A stretch of DNA of 34,745 bases, from the NCBI GenBank assembly GCA_016650245.1, contig JAENWD010000171.1, forward strand, positions 1-34,745. The letters run 5' to 3'. Origin of the DNA: Vicinamibacteria bacterium. Lineage in GTDB: Bacteria; Acidobacteriota; Vicinamibacteria; Vicinamibacterales; JAENWD01. The notes under the pieces were generated by a model. That model had not been told where the DNA came from. It made no database searches and saw only the letters and a program-made list of their open reading frames with translations. The translations under genes were made by a program, and so were the position numbers. Below are positions 11,597 to 32,365 of this stretch, in pieces (the stretch's first letter is position 1; the number at the start of each line of letters is the position of its first letter).

Positions 11597-12841
11597 GTGA
11601 CGGCTGTGTGGATCGTCCTCGCGTTTGCCGCCGGTGCTGCGATCACCTGGGTGCTCGTGCGCCAGCAGGCCGCCGCGCGCATCGCCGCGCTCGAGGTGAG
11701 GTTGCAGGCCTCCGACCAGCGGCACACCATCCTCTCGAGCGCCGAGCAGACCCTTCGCGACGCCTTCCGCTCGATGGCCTCGGAGGCCCTGCAGGCCAAC
11801 AGCCAGTCGCTCACGGCGTTGGCGCAGGCCTCGCTCGAGAAAACCAACGAGCAGGTGAAAGGCGACCTCGACCGGCGTCACGCCGCCATGTCCGACCTGG
11901 TGCGCCCGCTGGCCGAGGCGCTGCAGGCCGTGGACCAGAAGCTGGGGGCGGTCGAGAGAGATCGCATCGCTGCCAACGCCTCGCTGGCAGAGCAACTCAA
12001 GCACGTGGGCTCCGGCCTGACGTCACTGCAAGGCGAAACCGGCAAGCTGGTCAAGGCGCTGCGTCAGCCGCACGTGCGTGGCCACTGGGGCGAGGTGCAG
12101 CTACGGCAGGTGGTCGAACTGGCGGGCATGATCGAGCACACCGACTTTCTCGAGCAGGTCACTGTCACCACAGAAGACGGTCGGTTCCGTCCCGACCTGG
12201 TGGTGCGCCTGCCTGGCGGCAAACGCGTGATCGTCGATGCCAAAGCGCCGCTGGCCGCGTACTTCGACGCTGTCGAAGCACAAGACGACGCCGAGCGCGC
12301 CGTCAAGCTGGGCGATCACGCCCGTCAGGTGCGCGACCACCTGAATCGCCTGGGCAGCAAGGCCTACTGGAGCCAGTTCGACGACACGCCCGAGTTCGTC
12401 GTGATGTTCCTGCCCGGCGAGGCGTTGTTCTCGGCCGCGCTGTCGCACGACCCGCTGCTCATCGAGCACGGCATCGCCAACCGCGTCGTGCTGGCCAGCC
12501 CGACGACCTTGATCGCGTTGCTCAAAGCGGTGTCGTACGGCTGGCGGCAGGATCGTCTCCAGGCCAACGCGCAGCAGATCTCGGACCTGGGCCGCGAGCT
12601 CTACCAGCGGCTGCTGGTGCTGGCCACGCACTACGACGACGTGAAGCGGGGACTGGATCGGGCCGTCGACGCGTACAACCGGTCGGTGGCCTCGCTTGAA
12701 ACGCGCGTGCTGGTCACAGCGCGTCGCTTCCGAGACCTCGGTGCCTCATCAGGCGACGACATCCCGGAAGTCGGGCCGATTGAGAAGACTACTCGCGAAG
12801 TCCAGGCCCCGGAGGTGCGGAGCTTATTCGACGATGAGTGA
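11597..12841 (+). CDS. rmuC: DNA recombination protein RmuC family
   Basis: GHWGEVQLRQVVELAGM, DFLEQVTVTTEDGRFRPDLVVRLPGGKRVIVDAKAPLAAYFDA, VLASPTTLIALLKAVSYGWRQ. Confidence 0.93.
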   Translation: MTAVWIVLAFAAGAAITWVLVRQQAAARIAALEVRLQASDQRHTILSSAEQTLRDAFRSMASEALQANSQSLTALAQASLEKTNEQVKGDLDRRHAAMSDLVRPLAEALQAVDQKLGAVERDRIAANASLAEQLKHVGSGLTSLQGETGKLVKALRQPHVRGHWGEVQLRQVVELAGMIEHTDFLEQVTVTTEDGRFRPDLVVRLPGGKRVIVDAKAPLAAYFDAVEAQDDAERAVKLGDHARQVRDHLNRLGSKAYWSQFDDTPEFVVMFLPGEALFSAALSHDPLLIEHGIANRVVLASPTTLIALLKAVSYGWRQDRLQANAQQISDLGRELYQRLLVLATHYDDVKRGLDRAVDAYNRSVASLETRVLVTARRFRDLGASSGDDIPEVGPIEKTTREVQAPEVRSLFDDE

Positions 12842-12898
12842 AGTGCGAAGTGCGAAGTACGTACTTTGCATTTCGCACTTTGCACTTTGCACTTCTTC
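12842..12898. repeat. Inverted period-7 array filling the rmuC/OMP convergent gap
   Basis: gtgcgaa gtgcgaa gtacgta ctttgca tttcgca ctttgca ctttgca cttcttc; centre AAGTACGTACTT; flanked directly by both stop codons. Confidence 0.9.
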
Positions 12899-15640: not shown

Positions 15641-15749
15641 GTCAATCACAAAGACACAAAGTCACGGAGACGCACAGAACTTGCTTGGGTTGAGGGTGTC
15701 AACCAAATCCGTTTGTGCGTCTTTGTGCCTTCGTGTCTTTGTGGTTGAC
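15641..15749. repeat. Long intergenic hairpin, family copy C
   Basis: GTCAATCACAAAGACACAAAGTCACGGAGACGCACAGAA versus the reverse complement of the right arm, GTCAACCACAAAGACACGAAGGCACAAAGACGCACAAA. Confidence 0.9.
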
Positions 15750-22105: not shown

Positions 22106-22227
22106 ACGTACGCCAACCACTGAGACACGGAGAACACGGAGGCCACATGGAGATCTTTTTGAAAGTCCGCAAAGACGAAGTTCTGTGCGTCCTCTGTGAT
22201 CTCCGTGTCTCCGTGGTTGGCGTACGT
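22106..22227. repeat. Long intergenic hairpin, family copy A
   Basis: Perfect 15-bp ends ACGTACGCCAACCAC/GTGGTTGGCGTACGT, followed by TGAGACACGGAGAACACGGAGG versus GGAGACACGGAGATCACAGAGG. Confidence 0.93.
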
Positions 22228-23776: not shown

Positions 23777-23868
23777 CGGTGTCAGTTCGGTCCTGCCACG
23801 TTAGACCATTCGGACGCGCTGGAGGTTGAGTGTTCGACTTCACGGATAGAATCTTGGCCAAACAACCT

Positions 23869-25386
23869 ATGAACACGTGCCGCGCCCTCATTGTCTCGTT
23901 GCTTGTGCTCGGTGGCTCGCTGGCTGTCGTGGGGCAGCAGGCCGGCGGCGGGCTGCTGATCCGCAACGGCCGCCTTGTTGACGGCACCGGAGGTCCCTCG
24001 CGGGCAGCCGACGTCCGCATCGAAGGCGACGCCATCGTCGAAGTGGGGCCGTCGTTGTCGCCCAGAACCGGCGAGCGCGTCATCGACGCCACGGGGCGCG
24101 TCGTGGCCCCGGGTTTCATCGACATGCACTCGCATGCCGACGGCGGGCTCGCCGAGTCGCCTGACGCGGCCACGCAGTTGCGACAGGGCATCACGACCAC
24201 TCTGGTCGGCCAGGACGGCGGCGGCGAGCTGCCGGTGGCGGACCTGGCCGACCGCGTCGGCCGCGTCAAGCCGGCCATCAACCTCGCGACCAGTGTCGGG
24301 CACGGCACGGTCCGGCGTCTGGTGATGGGCGAGGACTTCAGGCGCGCCGCAACGCCGGCGGAGATCGAGACGATGAAGGCGCTGGTGGAGCGCGGAATGA
24401 AGGACGGCGCCGTCGGCTTGTCGAGCGGTCTCGAGTACGACCCCGGCTTCTACGCGACCACCGACGAGTTGGCGGCGTTGGCCACCTCGATCAGGCCCTA
24501 CGGCGGCTTCTATTCCAGCCACGTGCGCGACGAGGAGAACGAGTACCTCGCGGCGTGGAAGGAGGCGATCGACGTCGGACGCCGCGCAGGCGTGGCTGTC
24601 GAGATCTCCCACATGAAGCTGGCCAGCAAGCCCGTGTGGGGCCGAGCGAAGGAAGGCCTCGCGATGCTCGACGCCGCCAGGCGCGAGGGCCTGACCGTGA
24701 TGGGTGACTGGTATCCCTATCCGTACTGGCAGTCGGCGATGTACGTCCTGATTCCTGACCGCGAGTTCGAGAACGTCGAGAAGTGGCGCGTGGGCCTTGA
24801 CGAGATCGGCGGCGCGGGTAACGTGCGCATCACCAATTACCGCGCTGACCCGTCGTGGAACGGCAAGACGCTGGCGGAACTGGCCGCGACGCAGAACATC
24901 GACCCACCGTCGCTCATCGTCTCGATGGTCAAGGCGGAGGGCCCGGCCATCGGCATCATCGGCACCTCGATGGACGAGGCCGACATGAAAGCCATCCTGG
25001 CGCACCCGCAGGTGCTCATCTGCTCTGACGGCCAATTGAGCGGCCGCCACCCACGCGGCTACGGCGCGTTCCCGCGTGTGCTCGCGCGCTACGTGCGGGA
25101 GCAGCAGGCGATCTCTCTGGAAGAGGCGATCGCCAAGATGACGAGCCGGTCGGCGGCGATGCTGGGCCTGGCCGATCGCGGCGTCGTTGCCGCAGGCAAG
25201 AAGGCCGACGTGGTGATCTTCGACGCGGCGACGATCGCCGACCGCGGCACGCCGCAGGAACCCGCGCAAGCGCCGGTTGGCCTGGACACGGTCATCGTCA
25301 ACGGGCAAGTCGTGCTCGATCGCGGAGAGGTGACCGGTGCGCGACCGGGGCGGGCGCTGCGGCGTACGGGGGCCAGGCCCCGTTAA
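23869..25386 (+). CDS. N-acyl-D-amino-acid deacylase family amidohydrolase (exported)
   Basis: RNGRLVDGTGGPSRAADVRIEGDAIVEVG, APGFIDMHSHADGG, GLSSGLEYDPG, HPRGYGAFPRVLARYVREQ. Confidence 0.92.
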   Translation: MNTCRALIVSLLVLGGSLAVVGQQAGGGLLIRNGRLVDGTGGPSRAADVRIEGDAIVEVGPSLSPRTGERVIDATGRVVAPGFIDMHSHADGGLAESPDAATQLRQGITTTLVGQDGGGELPVADLADRVGRVKPAINLATSVGHGTVRRLVMGEDFRRAATPAEIETMKALVERGMKDGAVGLSSGLEYDPGFYATTDELAALATSIRPYGGFYSSHVRDEENEYLAAWKEAIDVGRRAGVAVEISHMKLASKPVWGRAKEGLAMLDAARREGLTVMGDWYPYPYWQSAMYVLIPDREFENVEKWRVGLDEIGGAGNVRITNYRADPSWNGKTLAELAATQNIDPPSLIVSMVKAEGPAIGIIGTSMDEADMKAILAHPQVLICSDGQLSGRHPRGYGAFPRVLARYVREQQAISLEEAIAKMTSRSAAMLGLADRGVVAAGKKADVVIFDAATIADRGTPQEPAQAPVGLDTVIVNGQVVLDRGEVTGARPGRALRRTGARPR

Positions 25387-25446
25387 GGATTTGTAAAGGG
25401 AGACTCGATGACTTTACAAATCCTTAACGGGGCCTGGCCCCCGTAC
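25364..25446. repeat. Perfect 35-bp inverted repeat with 13-nt loop spanning the deacylase stop and GNAT start
   Basis: GTACGGGGGCCAGGCCCCGTTAAGGATTTGTAAAG (25364-25398) is the exact reverse complement of 25412-25446; loop ggagactcgatga holds the ATG at 25408. Confidence 0.97.
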
Positions 25447-26409
25447 AACCGACTCCTCGACCAGATCCTCGACGAGAGCTGGCCGCAGTGGGGCGATGGG
25501 CTCACGCGTGAGGCGTACGGGCAGTGGAACGCGGCGCAACTGCGTACCCCGTGGGGGCGATCACGCTTGGCACGCGTCGCGCTGGTCGATGACGGCCGCC
25601 TGCTGGCATCCGCCAAACGCTATCGCTTCACCGTCTTGCTGGATGGCCAGCAGGTGTCCGCCACAGGGATTGGCGCGGTGTTCACACCGCCGGCCGAACG
25701 GGGACGAGGGCATGCGTCCCGGCTGATCGAACAGCTCTGCGACGAGGGTCGCGCGGACGGATGCGCGCTGGCGATGCTGTTCTCGGAGATCGGATCGGCG
25801 TACTACGAGCGCCTCGGCTTTCGTGTCGTGCCGCACTCGACCAGCGACATCACGGTCAAGACCAAGGACGGCGCTCCTGCCGTGTTGGTGCGCGCCGGCG
25901 AGCAACGCGATGCCGCCAGCGTCGCCGAGACCCATGTGAGGCGCGTCGAGCACTATCGATTCGGCCTCGTGCCGGACGCGGATCAGGTCAACTACTCCGT
26001 CGCGAAGAAGCGCATGCTCGCGGGTCTGGACCCCACCGGCCGCCGCACGGTGGAGTACTTCGTCACCGAAGAAGGCTGCCAGGCCGTGGCTTTCGTGCTG
26101 CTGCAGGTCACGCGGCCCCAGCGGCCCGGCGATCCCGAAGGGTGGAGCCTCGCCGCGTGTGGTGACCGCGACCCCGAGGGCGCGCGCATCGGCGCGATGC
26201 TGCAGGTGCTGCTGGCCCGACATCCCGGCGAACGCCCGCCCGTCATCCGGGCCTGGTGGCCCGAGGGATTGCGCCCGCCGCAGCTCGAGATCACGCGACG
26301 CGGCCAGGCCGCCGAGATCATGATGATTCGACCCCTCCGCGAGGGCCTTCACGTCGAGCCCTGGCTCGACGAAGGCGACACCTTCTGGTGGCACGGGGAT
26401 GCCTTCTGA
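25408..26409 (+). CDS. GNAT family N-acetyltransferase
   Basis: ATGIGAVFTPPAERGRGHASRLIEQLCDEGRADGCALAMLFSEIGSAYYERLGFRVV: GNAT motif A and following strand. Confidence 0.87.
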   Translation: MTLQILNGAWPPYNRLLDQILDESWPQWGDGLTREAYGQWNAAQLRTPWGRSRLARVALVDDGRLLASAKRYRFTVLLDGQQVSATGIGAVFTPPAERGRGHASRLIEQLCDEGRADGCALAMLFSEIGSAYYERLGFRVVPHSTSDITVKTKDGAPAVLVRAGEQRDAASVAETHVRRVEHYRFGLVPDADQVNYSVAKKRMLAGLDPTGRRTVEYFVTEEGCQAVAFVLLQVTRPQRPGDPEGWSLAACGDRDPEGARIGAMLQVLLARHPGERPPVIRAWWPEGLRPPQLEITRRGQAAEIMMIRPLREGLHVEPWLDEGDTFWWHGDAF

Positions 26410-28083: not shown

Positions 28084-30468
28084 ATGGACTACGAAAAACT
28101 CGGCCTCTTCTACCTCGGACGCCCCTACGACCTCGACACCAAGTCGGCGCGCGACGGCCTGCTGCTCTACGACTCCAAGGATCTCGTGACGCACGCGGTG
28201 TGTGTCGGCATGACCGGCAGCGGCAAGACCGGCCTGTGTATCGACTTGCTCGAAGAGGCAGCCATCGATGGCATCCCCGCGCTTGCCATCGATCCCAAAG
28301 GCGACCTTGGCAACCTGCTGCTGACCTTCCCCGATTTGTCACCGGGCGAGTTCCGCCCGTGGATCGACGAGGACGAGGCGCGGCGCAACGGCAAGACTCC
28401 GGAGGAGTGGGCGGCGTCGGAGGCCGATACCTGGCGCAAGGGCCTTGAAAGCTGGGGCCAGAGCGGCGACCGCATCAAGCGGCTGCGCGCAGCCGTGGAC
28501 GTCGCGATCTACACGCCGGGTGCGCAGTCGGGGTTGCCCCTGTCGATCGTGAAGTCGTTCTCGGCGCCGGCGCCGGACTTCATCGAGGAATCCGATCTGA
28601 TGCGCGAGCGCGTCGCGACGACGGCGACGAGCCTGCTGGGCCTGCTCGGCATCGACGCGGATCCGATCAAGAGCCGCGAGCACATCCTGCTCTCCACCAT
28701 CATCGACTCCTGCTGGCGCCAGGGAGAGGATTTTGATCTCGCGCGGTTGATTCAGATGATCCAGACACCGCCCGTCCAGCGCATCGGCGTGCTCGAGCTC
28801 GAAGCGTTCTACCCGTCCGACAAGCGCTTCGAGCTGGCGATGGCGGTGAACAACCTGCTGGCCGCGCCGGGCTTCAGCGCCTGGATGGAGGGCGAAGCGC
28901 TGGACGTGCAGCGGCTGCTCTACACGCCCGAGGGCAAACCGCGCCTGACGATTCTGTCCATCGCGCACCTCAACGACGCCGAGCGGATGTTCTTCGTCTC
29001 GCTGCTGCTGAATCAAGTACTGGGCTGGATGCGACAGCAGCCAGGGACGACGAGCCTGCGGGCCATCGTCTACATGGACGAGATCGCCGGGTACCTGCCG
29101 CCGGTGGCCAACCCCGCGTCGAAGGCGCCGATGCTGACGCTGCTGAAGCAGGCGCGGGCATTTGGCGTCGGCATGGTGCTGGCGACGCAGAACCCGGTGG
29201 ATCTGGACTACAAGGCGCTGTCCAACGCGGGCACCTGGTTCATCGGGCGGCTGCAGACCGAGCGCGACCAGATGCGCGTTCTCGACGGGCTCGAAGGCGC
29301 GATGTCCAACGCCGGCGGCGCCTTCGACCGCGACAAGCTGCAGCGCCTGATCGGTGGTCTGGGCAAGCGCGTGTTCCTGCTCCACAACGTTCACGAAGAC
29401 GGCCCCGAGGTCTTCGAATCACGGTGGGCCATGTCGTACCTCCGCGGCCCGCTGACACGGACGCAGATCCGGACGCTAATGGCTGGGCGCAAGGCCACCG
29501 CCCCCGACAGCACCCCAGCACCCCCCAGCACCCGAGAGCACCAGAGGGCACCTGAGAGCACCCGTCCCGCCGTCTCCGCCCACTGGGTGCTGCCCCCGGG
29601 CATCCCGCAGTACTTCGCGCCGGCCAGGGCGGGGGCGCACTACGTGCCGATGATCGTCGGCGCGGCCAACGTGCGGTTCACCGACACGAAGGCGAAGATC
29701 GACAGCACCCGACCGCTCACCGTCGTCACGCCGCTCACCGCCGATCCGATCCCGGTGACCTGGGATCAGGCCCAGCCAGCGACGTTCGAGGTGGGGCAGC
29801 TGTCGACGGACCTGCCGTCGGGCGCAACCTTCGACGAGCTGCCGGGCCCGGCGAGCAAGGCCAGGAACTACGCCGACTGGACCAGGTCGTTTGTGACGTG
29901 GGTGTCGACCGCCGAGTCGCTCGACATCTACCGCAGCCCCTCGCTCGAGATCGTCTCGAACGCCGGCGAGTCCGAGGGCGACTTCCGCGCCCGCCTGCAG
30001 CAGGCGGCGCGCGAGCAGCGCGATGCCGAGGTCACGCGCCTGCGCCAGAAGTTCGCGCCCAGGGCCGCGGCGCTGCAGGAGCGGCTCCGCCGCGCGGAGC
30101 AGGCAGTGGAGAAAGAAGAGGAGCAGGCCTCCGCGCAGAAGACGCAGACGGCGATCTCGTTCGGGACGACCGTGCTGGGCGCGCTGTTTGGCCGCAAGTC
30201 GCTGAGCGCGTCGACGCTTGGCCGCGCCACCACCGCCGTGCGCGGCGTGGGGCGCGCGTCAAAGGAAGCGCAGGACGTCACGCGCGCGAAGGAGAACGTC
30301 GGGTCGGTGCAGTCGCAGATGGAAGAACTCGACGCGGCCTTGCAGGCCGCAATCGCCTCGCTCGACGCGACCTACCATCCCGCCACCGAACCGCTCGAGA
30401 CCATCAGCCTCAAGCCGATGCGGACGGGAATCCAGGTGAAACTCGTCGCGCTGGTCTGGGTTGGGTGA
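28084..30468 (+). CDS. HerA/FtsK-like ATPase (DUF853/DUF87 type) with long C-terminal extension
   Basis: VCVGMTGSGKTGLCIDLLEEAAIDGIPALAIDPKGDLGNLL (Walker A), RAIVYMDEIAGYLP (Walker B), LLKQARAFGVGMVLATQNPVDLDYKALSNAGTWFIGRLQTERD. Upstream ATG at 28024 overlaps the hydrolase. Confidence 0.85.
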   Translation: MDYEKLGLFYLGRPYDLDTKSARDGLLLYDSKDLVTHAVCVGMTGSGKTGLCIDLLEEAAIDGIPALAIDPKGDLGNLLLTFPDLSPGEFRPWIDEDEARRNGKTPEEWAASEADTWRKGLESWGQSGDRIKRLRAAVDVAIYTPGAQSGLPLSIVKSFSAPAPDFIEESDLMRERVATTATSLLGLLGIDADPIKSREHILLSTIIDSCWRQGEDFDLARLIQMIQTPPVQRIGVLELEAFYPSDKRFELAMAVNNLLAAPGFSAWMEGEALDVQRLLYTPEGKPRLTILSIAHLNDAERMFFVSLLLNQVLGWMRQQPGTTSLRAIVYMDEIAGYLPPVANPASKAPMLTLLKQARAFGVGMVLATQNPVDLDYKALSNAGTWFIGRLQTERDQMRVLDGLEGAMSNAGGAFDRDKLQRLIGGLGKRVFLLHNVHEDGPEVFESRWAMSYLRGPLTRTQIRTLMAGRKATAPDSTPAPPSTREHQRAPESTRPAVSAHWVLPPGIPQYFAPARAGAHYVPMIVGAANVRFTDTKAKIDSTRPLTVVTPLTADPIPVTWDQAQPATFEVGQLSTDLPSGATFDELPGPASKARNYADWTRSFVTWVSTAESLDIYRSPSLEIVSNAGESEGDFRARLQQAAREQRDAEVTRLRQKFAPRAAALQERLRRAEQAVEKEEEQASAQKTQTAISFGTTVLGALFGRKSLSASTLGRATTAVRGVGRASKEAQDVTRAKENVGSVQSQMEELDAALQAAIASLDATYHPATEPLETISLKPMRTGIQVKLVALVWVG
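29508..29563. repeat. GAGCACC/CAGCACC simple repeat inside the ATPase CDS
   Basis: cagcacc-ccagcacc-ccccagcacc-cgagagcacc-agagggcacc-tgagagcacc; encodes the linker DSTPAPPSTREHQRAPESTR. Confidence 0.8.
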
Positions 30469-30470
30469 TC

Positions 30471-30593
30471 ACGTACGCCAACCACAGAGACACGGAGACC
30501 ACGGAGGCCACACTGAGATCTTTCTTCTTGGCTTCCCAAGAAGAAACTCTGTGCGTCCTTTGTGGTCTCGGTGTCTCTGTGGTTGGCGTACGT
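30471..30593. repeat. Long intergenic hairpin, family copy B
   Basis: Perfect 23-bp ends ACGTACGCCAACCACAGAGACAC/GTGTCTCTGTGGTTGGCGTACGT; fills the convergent gap to within 2 nt of each stop codon. Confidence 0.95.
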
Positions 30594-30595
30594 CA

Positions 30596-32365
30596 TCAAT
30601 AAGCTTGAACGATTTTCAACGACACCGATCGCTGTTCGCCTTCACCGAGACTGAAGGCCGTTGCCAGCGAGCGCAGGCGTTCGAGGAACTCGGGATCGGT
30701 TTCCTGCCCCTCTTCGAGCGCCTCGACGGCGACCGCGAGGTAGCGTCCAGCCGGCAGGTTCTTCGCCTGGAAGCCGCCCTGCTGATCGGGCCTGGCCATG
30801 GTCACGTGGCGCGACATGTAGCCCCACTTCGCCGGGTCTTCCGAAAACACGATCGTCGCGTAGTCCACCACCGGCTTGCCGTGGTCGTCGGTGACCCCGC
30901 CCGTTACGCCGCTGCTGGTGGTGCTGAGCACGACTTGCAGTCCGGTCACCGGCTCGCCCTGTTTGAAGGCGACGCCGGTGTCGGTGACATCGGTGCCGTT
31001 GAGCAACACCGCCTTCAACGAGTAGCCGGCGGGCACGCGGAACGTGCGGATCAACACCGGGCTGAGCACTGCCTTCAGCTCGAACGTCCAGTCGTCGTCC
31101 AGCCGGTCGCGCATCTCGCCGCCCATGAAGATCATCGGCGCGTCCGGGTTCTTCGCCATCGCATTCACGGAGACGTCCGTCGGCTTGATGCCGGTCGCGG
31201 CCGAGGCGGGCTGCACGACGACCTGGCCGCGCAAGCTGGTGCCCTTGGTGCCCATCAACGTCACGCCGGTGACGTCCTCGCCGCCCACCGAGAGCGACGT
31301 GAACGCCGCTTCCGGGTCGTCGTCGCCGCCACCACGACGCGGGCCCATGCCCATCGTGCGCGCCTCGAGCACGTAGTCGCCCGGCGCGATATTGGACAGC
31401 ACGAACGTCCCGTCGTCGCGCACGCGGTTGCCCGCGCCGAAGGACATCATCATCATGCCGCCGTCGCCGGAACGGATGTCCTCGCGCAGCATCACGAACG
31501 CGCCCGCCATCGGTTTGCCCGACGAATCCACCGCCGTGCCGCTGACCTTCACGGTGCGGACTGGCAGCAGCGAGAAGGTGACCCCCGCCATCTCGGCCCC
31601 AAGCCCGACGTTGATGCGGTCGGCCTGCTGCGAGCTGGCCGTGCCCGGATAGTAGGTCGGGGCGTAGCCGGTGGTGCTGTCGCTCGACTCGGCGCCCATC
31701 ATGCCCATCGGGCGCAGCGTCGCGCTGATGTAGTAGTCGCCCGGCGCAAGGCCATAGAGCCGGAAGTGGCCCATGTCGTCGGTGGAGCCGAACCGCCCGA
31801 CCGGCACCAGCCGGCGGCGCCCGCTGAAGGTGCGGTAGTGCAGGGCCGAGACCATCGCGTCGGCGATCGGCTCGCCGAACTCGTCGACGATGCGCCCGGC
31901 GATCACCGATCCGCGTGGCAGGTTGAAGTTGACGTTCTCCAGCGTCTGGCCGTCGGCCAGTTCAATCGGCCGTCCGCGTTCGAAGGGCCGGCGCTGCCCG
32001 TAGTTCAGCTGCACGTAGCCGCCCTTGGACGCCGTGAGGTTGTAGCGGCCGGCCGGCAGATCCTTGATCTCCCAGCGGCCCTCTTCGTCGGTCGAGGCGA
32101 CGCGGCCCTCGCGGAACTCCTGGCCCTGCAACCGCACGACCGCGCGTCGGGACGCCTGACCGGCCTCGCCGCCGACGACACGGCCGCGCAGACGCGCGGT
32201 GCCCGTCTGCGGCGCCTGGTTGTCGCGCGGGCCCGTGCGGGGCCCCATGGGGCGCTGGCCCTCGATCCTGATTTGCTGGGCGCTGACCTCGATCCGCGAC
32301 GCTGCCGTCGAGGCGATGACGACAAGTCCGACAAGACTGGCGAGTGCGTACGCGAGTCGATTCAT
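30596..32365 (-). CDS. Carboxypeptidase-regulatory-like (CarboxypepD_reg/Ig-like) exported protein
   Basis: Repeated modules such as RLRGRVVGGEAGQASRRAVVRLQGQ, GSVIAGRIVDEFGEPIADAMVSAL, VKVSGTAVDSSGKPMAGAFVML. Confidence 0.85.
   Translation of the reverse strand: MNRLAYALASLVGLVVIASTAASRIEVSAQQIRIEGQRPMGPRTGPRDNQAPQTGTARLRGRVVGGEAGQASRRAVVRLQGQEFREGRVASTDEEGRWEIKDLPAGRYNLTASKGGYVQLNYGQRRPFERGRPIELADGQTLENVNFNLPRGSVIAGRIVDEFGEPIADAMVSALHYRTFSGRRRLVPVGRFGSTDDMGHFRLYGLAPGDYYISATLRPMGMMGAESSDSTTGYAPTYYPGTASSQQADRINVGLGAEMAGVTFSLLPVRTVKVSGTAVDSSGKPMAGAFVMLREDIRSGDGGMMMMSFGAGNRVRDDGTFVLSNIAPGDYVLEARTMGMGPRRGGGDDDPEAAFTSLSVGGEDVTGVTLMGTKGTSLRGQVVVQPASAATGIKPTDVSVNAMAKNPDAPMIFMGGEMRDRLDDDWTFELKAVLSPVLIRTFRVPAGYSLKAVLLNGTDVTDTGVAFKQGEPVTGLQVVLSTTSSGVTGGVTDDHGKPVVDYATIVFSEDPAKWGYMSRHVTMARPDQQGGFQAKNLPAGRYLAVAVEALEEGQETDPEFLERLRSLATAFSLGEGEQRSVSLKIVQAY

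Follow-up and report, generated by a model that had tools for sequence, protein, structure and literature searches.

A hairpin across the junction of an amidohydrolase gene and a GNAT acetyltransferase gene in a Vicinamibacteria bacterium very probably consists of two inverted copies of a REP palindrome associated with a transposase

The hairpin at the junction of two co-directional genes, encoding an amidohydrolase and a GNAT acetyltransferase, is very probably a REPIN that spans this junction, a pair of transposase-associated REP palindromes in inverted orientation. A dispersed 24-nt repeat makes up the outer part of both arms and also brackets a Y1/HUH transposase remnant. As judged from the reading frames, each REP is now translated, the left one as a new C-terminus and stop codon of the amidohydrolase and the right one as seven residues of GNAT after its native start.

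The inverted repeat has arms of 35 nt each (25364-25398 and 25412-25446), 100% complementary and with 13 nt between them (Table 1), and it is the sole perfect long repeat in the window (the whole 34,745-nt stretch of DNA analysed), the other three longer than 35 nt being 84-88% complementary. Folded as RNA, the 83-nt palindrome gives -72.4 kcal/mol against -26.1 +/- 3.4 for shuffles (z -13.8), and the z value is -11.2 when it is folded with its flanks. When the left arm is left out, the long stem is lost and the folding energy of the GNAT start region is no lower than that of shuffles (-21.6 kcal/mol, z 0.25). The perfect 35-bp inverted repeat with a 13-nt loop bearing a Shine-Dalgarno sequence (SD) and ATG, described in an earlier note on this DNA, is thus real according to both the arm coordinates and the fold. 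The note also read the arms correctly as coding: the left arm contains the amidohydrolase end (...RRTGARPR*), and the right arm gives the early GNAT residues MTLQILNGAWPPY.

Table 1. Features of the amidohydrolase-GNAT junction (positions in the window)
Feature	Position	Strand	Description
Amidohydrolase / N-acyl-D-amino-acid deacylase-like gene	23830..25386	+	Pfam Amidohydro_3, 2.5e-30
Left REP copy GTACGGGGGCCAGGCCCCGTTAAG	25364..25387	+	Encodes amidohydrolase C-terminus (last six codons) with TAA stop (25384-25386); further copies in genome exact or near-exact
Inner left arm GATTTGTAAAG	25388..25398	+	Inverse copy of early GNAT codons; unique to window among 162 genomes of the order
Loop GGAGACTCGATGA	25399..25411	+	SD-like GGAG and GNAT ATG (25408-25410), read from the sequence; predicted unpaired
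GNAT acetyltransferase gene	25408..26409	+	Pfam Acetyltransf_9, 4.1e-14; orthologues in relatives 45-50% identical
Inner right arm CTTTACAAATC	25412..25422	+	Early GNAT codons (MTLQI..), apparently native; orthologues have M[SA]LxVV/I
Right REP copy, reverse orientation	25423..25446	-	In-frame NGAWPPY in GNAT; orthologues have PATG there

The genome search proposed in the earlier note found the outer 24 nt to be dispersed and the whole 35-mer to occur only here: the latter was found once in its own genome, a 21-nt inner probe gave no second copy in that genome, and neither the exact 30-mer in genome_contigs nor the 26-mer in viral_contigs had a match. Near-full copies of the 24-mer (at most 3 mismatches) numbered 14 in the 4.26-Mb genome, and the core GGGGYCWGRCCCC was found 65 times, with none for a reversed-pattern control and about 7 predicted by base composition, the census being based on pattern searches and fetched stretches of a draft assembly in 448 contigs. 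Most cores are paired, inverted and 25-38 bp apart. Four further doublets (C110, C166, C273 and C430) have 24-bp arms with 0-3 mismatches and unrelated loops of 13 nt, and they are oriented as the window copy, with the GTAC feet outside. The window doublet differs from these four by an extra 11 paired bases on each side, and this inner 11-bp arm, when searched in 162 genomes of the order, was found only in the window, with no homologous hairpin. Long perfect palindromes can be fold-back artefacts, and in a draft assembly such an assembly or library chimera has to be considered. However, the limit of the arms coincides exactly with a REP boundary seen again at other loci, neither flank is an inverted copy of the other, and both genes are intact, in frame and unlike each other; an artefact is therefore very improbable and was rejected. 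Another inverted-repeat family that is dispersed in the genome (GTACGCCAACCACNGAGACACGGAGAACACGGAGG and its inverse) occupies intergenic gaps in the window (15641-15749, 22106-22227 and 30466-30598) and has 67 matches with at most 3 mismatches in the genome (control 0). In addition, a tandem and inverted repeat of the AAGTGCGAAGTGCGAAG type lies where two convergent genes have their 3' ends (window 12830-12898).

The genome has three Y1_Tnp matches, the best of which (C188:5010-5279) is bracketed by two cores, the upstream one being a near-perfect 24-mer, GTATGGGGGCCAGGCCCCGTTAAG, and the other lying just downstream. Its protein matches NF047646 REP_Tyr_transpos (REP-associated tyrosine transposase) with an E value of 3.4e-18, and we regard it as a remnant, because the N-terminal part is missing and the score is below the curated cut-off. 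In this genome, which is 91% complete, no cognate transposase was found in intact form. The link to a RAYT gene between copies of its REP is provided here by the remnant, and tyrosine transposase genes with GGGTCWGACCC palindromes, the palindrome core, on both sides were found in five related genomes (G001, G024, G035, G039 and G053). At two loci, L093 (G035:C9) and L094 (G001:C5), two or three such units abut on each side of the tyrosine transposase gene. Most other inspected transposase loci were without bracketing palindromes, as is expected if only certain transposases own the palindrome. The copy numbers of transposase and REP are not everywhere parallel, as two genomes (G016 and G017) have 29 and 18 cores, yet no Y1_Tnp match.

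A REPIN is a doublet of REPs that forms a hairpin (Bertels and Rainey 2011, PMC3116915). The element in the window resembles it in being an inverted REP doublet able to form one long hairpin, in having a variable spacer, in the dispersal of its REP in many copies over the same genome and in the link to a REP-associated tyrosine transposase. In contrast to the classical REP, its foot is GTAC and not GTAG (GTGG), and the element is not filed as a GTAG-class REP, although the REPIN doublet definition itself names no foot. The core sequences of this REP family are printed in none of the papers searched. Further differences are the 11 extra paired bases inside and the location: REPINs are usually, but not absolutely, extragenic, whereas here both REPs lie inside coding sequence, and the element straddles two adjoining genes and is read as protein in each. 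A transposase bracketed by its palindromes corresponds to the REPtron or TIRtron arrangement (PMC3733652), and TIRYTs, which include examples from Acidobacteria, are tyrosine transposases flanked by TIRs with a GGGGWSAS motif (PMC3733652; see also PMC6006769). The likeness to TIRYT/TIRtron lies in the palindromes starting with GGGGTCAG on both sides of the transposase gene; these copies in relatives match the motif, whereas the window variant GGGGCCAG has C at W. Here, however, the motif itself is a 13-nt palindrome of which up to 65 copies are dispersed. Intragenic REPs and Rickettsia palindromic elements (RPE) are similar as palindromic repeats read as in-frame short peptides or stop codons (PMC3733652), but their sequence is unrelated and the present element is tied to a tyrosine transposase.

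Comparison with relatives indicates what the doublet has done to the two proteins. The amidohydrolase ends in GARPGRALRRTGARPR in the window and in GARPGRVLYGPGRR in relatives, three of which end GARPGRVLY/FGPGRR/H*; the left REP provides the last six residues, TGARPR, and the stop. GNAT orthologues in related genomes begin M[SA]LxVVPATGxLLxQIL and have no palindrome, whereas the window has MTLQIL-NGAWPPYN-RLLDQIL, so that the REP insert NGAWPPY follows the native start and makes the protein about 4 residues longer (a search for a GNAT relative in genome_contigs gave none). The start and the first six residues (MTLQIL) seem to have been kept, and the start looks native because these match the orthologues without a palindrome.

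These comparisons bear on whether GNAT received its start from a mobile 83-bp palindrome carrying its own SD and start codon, which is close to the start-codon-bearing mobile palindrome among the options of the note. A loop of 13 nt as in the four other doublets, arms ending exactly at the REP boundary GTAC and an AT-rich inner segment (37% GC in a 68%-GC window) would all agree with insertion of such a unit. However, the inner arms and the loop were found nowhere else, the orthologues begin with M[SA]LxVV, which MTLQIL matches, and unit insertion would also need the loss of the native start region, which makes this origin unlikely. Of the note's option, mobility is the probable reading for the outer 24 bp in both arms, a transposase-associated REP whose dispersal is indirect evidence of it; a palindrome that brings a start codon is not supported, as no copy bearing one was found elsewhere and the GNAT start appears native.

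It is instead probable that the inner 11 bp of each arm are a local product of template switching. The right inner arm was taken as native GNAT coding sequence because it matches the orthologues, and the left as its inverse copy. The REPs would have spread as single-stranded hairpins by the transposase (the RAYT/TIRYT mechanism), and a template switch during replication across the palindrome would then have copied native GNAT codons to the other side, resulting in perfect arms. Template switching is described as both creating and maintaining hairpins (PMC8794818, PMC8604942), and across an existing palindrome it could yield such perfect arms in one step. Against it stand two observations, that the arms stop precisely at the REP boundary and that the loop is as long as those of the other doublets; a REPIN variant inserted as one unit would also fit both. 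We infer the order of these events, the nearest GNAT available for comparison being 50% identical.

In the mRNA, the stem would hide the GNAT start region unless the left arm is opened by a ribosome that terminates at 25386, at the end of the amidohydrolase. This stop is 21 nt upstream of the GNAT ATG, and therefore a ribosome finishing the amidohydrolase would melt this arm. Translation of GNAT would plausibly, and probably, be coupled to the upstream gene, and tighter translational coupling would be the most plausible consequence of the hairpin. The same geometry, in which the loop of the stem (z -13.8) displays precisely the SD and ATG and a terminating ribosome would open the left arm, could be expected of a dedicated cis-regulatory RNA (a switch, thermometer or coupling hairpin) selected for control of GNAT translation. 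However, the outer arms are a dispersed repeat present at unrelated loci, the hairpin is absent from orthologues, so that these genes have no conserved structured leader, an Rfam search gave no family, and the inner arm was found in no other genome of the order (162). A stem of -72 kcal/mol would also be far too stable for an RNA thermometer. The RNA switch, thermometer or attenuator of the earlier note thus finds no support in these data, and a dedicated regulator is improbable. The REPIN across the junction is probably tolerated rather than selected, and we propose only tentatively, as a doubtful sum of its parts, that a palindrome spread by a transposase, once it had landed on the junction and been perfected by template switching, sequesters the start codon in its loop and makes GNAT translation depend on upstream termination, so that a mobile repeat would have become a device for translational coupling.

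The repeat seems to be read inside other genes as well. According to a simple codon-usage test, which is crude and makes the number approximate, about 10 of 29 other REP loci have the same open frame flanking both sides. In ybeY (L047, G000:C124:16450-17050) a REP doublet lies in frame, and the REP-encoded GPGPRDAYGGQAPP replaces a similarly long loop that joins the conserved DVLSFP and LGDIVI, with these flanks unbroken. In glyS (glycyl-tRNA synthetase beta chain; L048, G000:C124:30150-30800) an in-frame doublet lengthens the protein by some residues ahead of the conserved C-terminal region. REPs within genes, and REPs that provide a stop codon, have been documented previously (PMC3733652).

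The kind of element is known (REPIN); what is unusual about this copy is that it spans a translation start. It indicates that a mobile palindrome of the REP type can simultaneously rewrite the C-terminus and stop codon of one gene and the N-terminus of the next, and it adds a REP family with a transposase remnant that is often found in frame inside genes, such as ybeY and glyS. It also cautions against taking a spectacular start-codon hairpin for a regulator, as it may be a mobile repeat instead.
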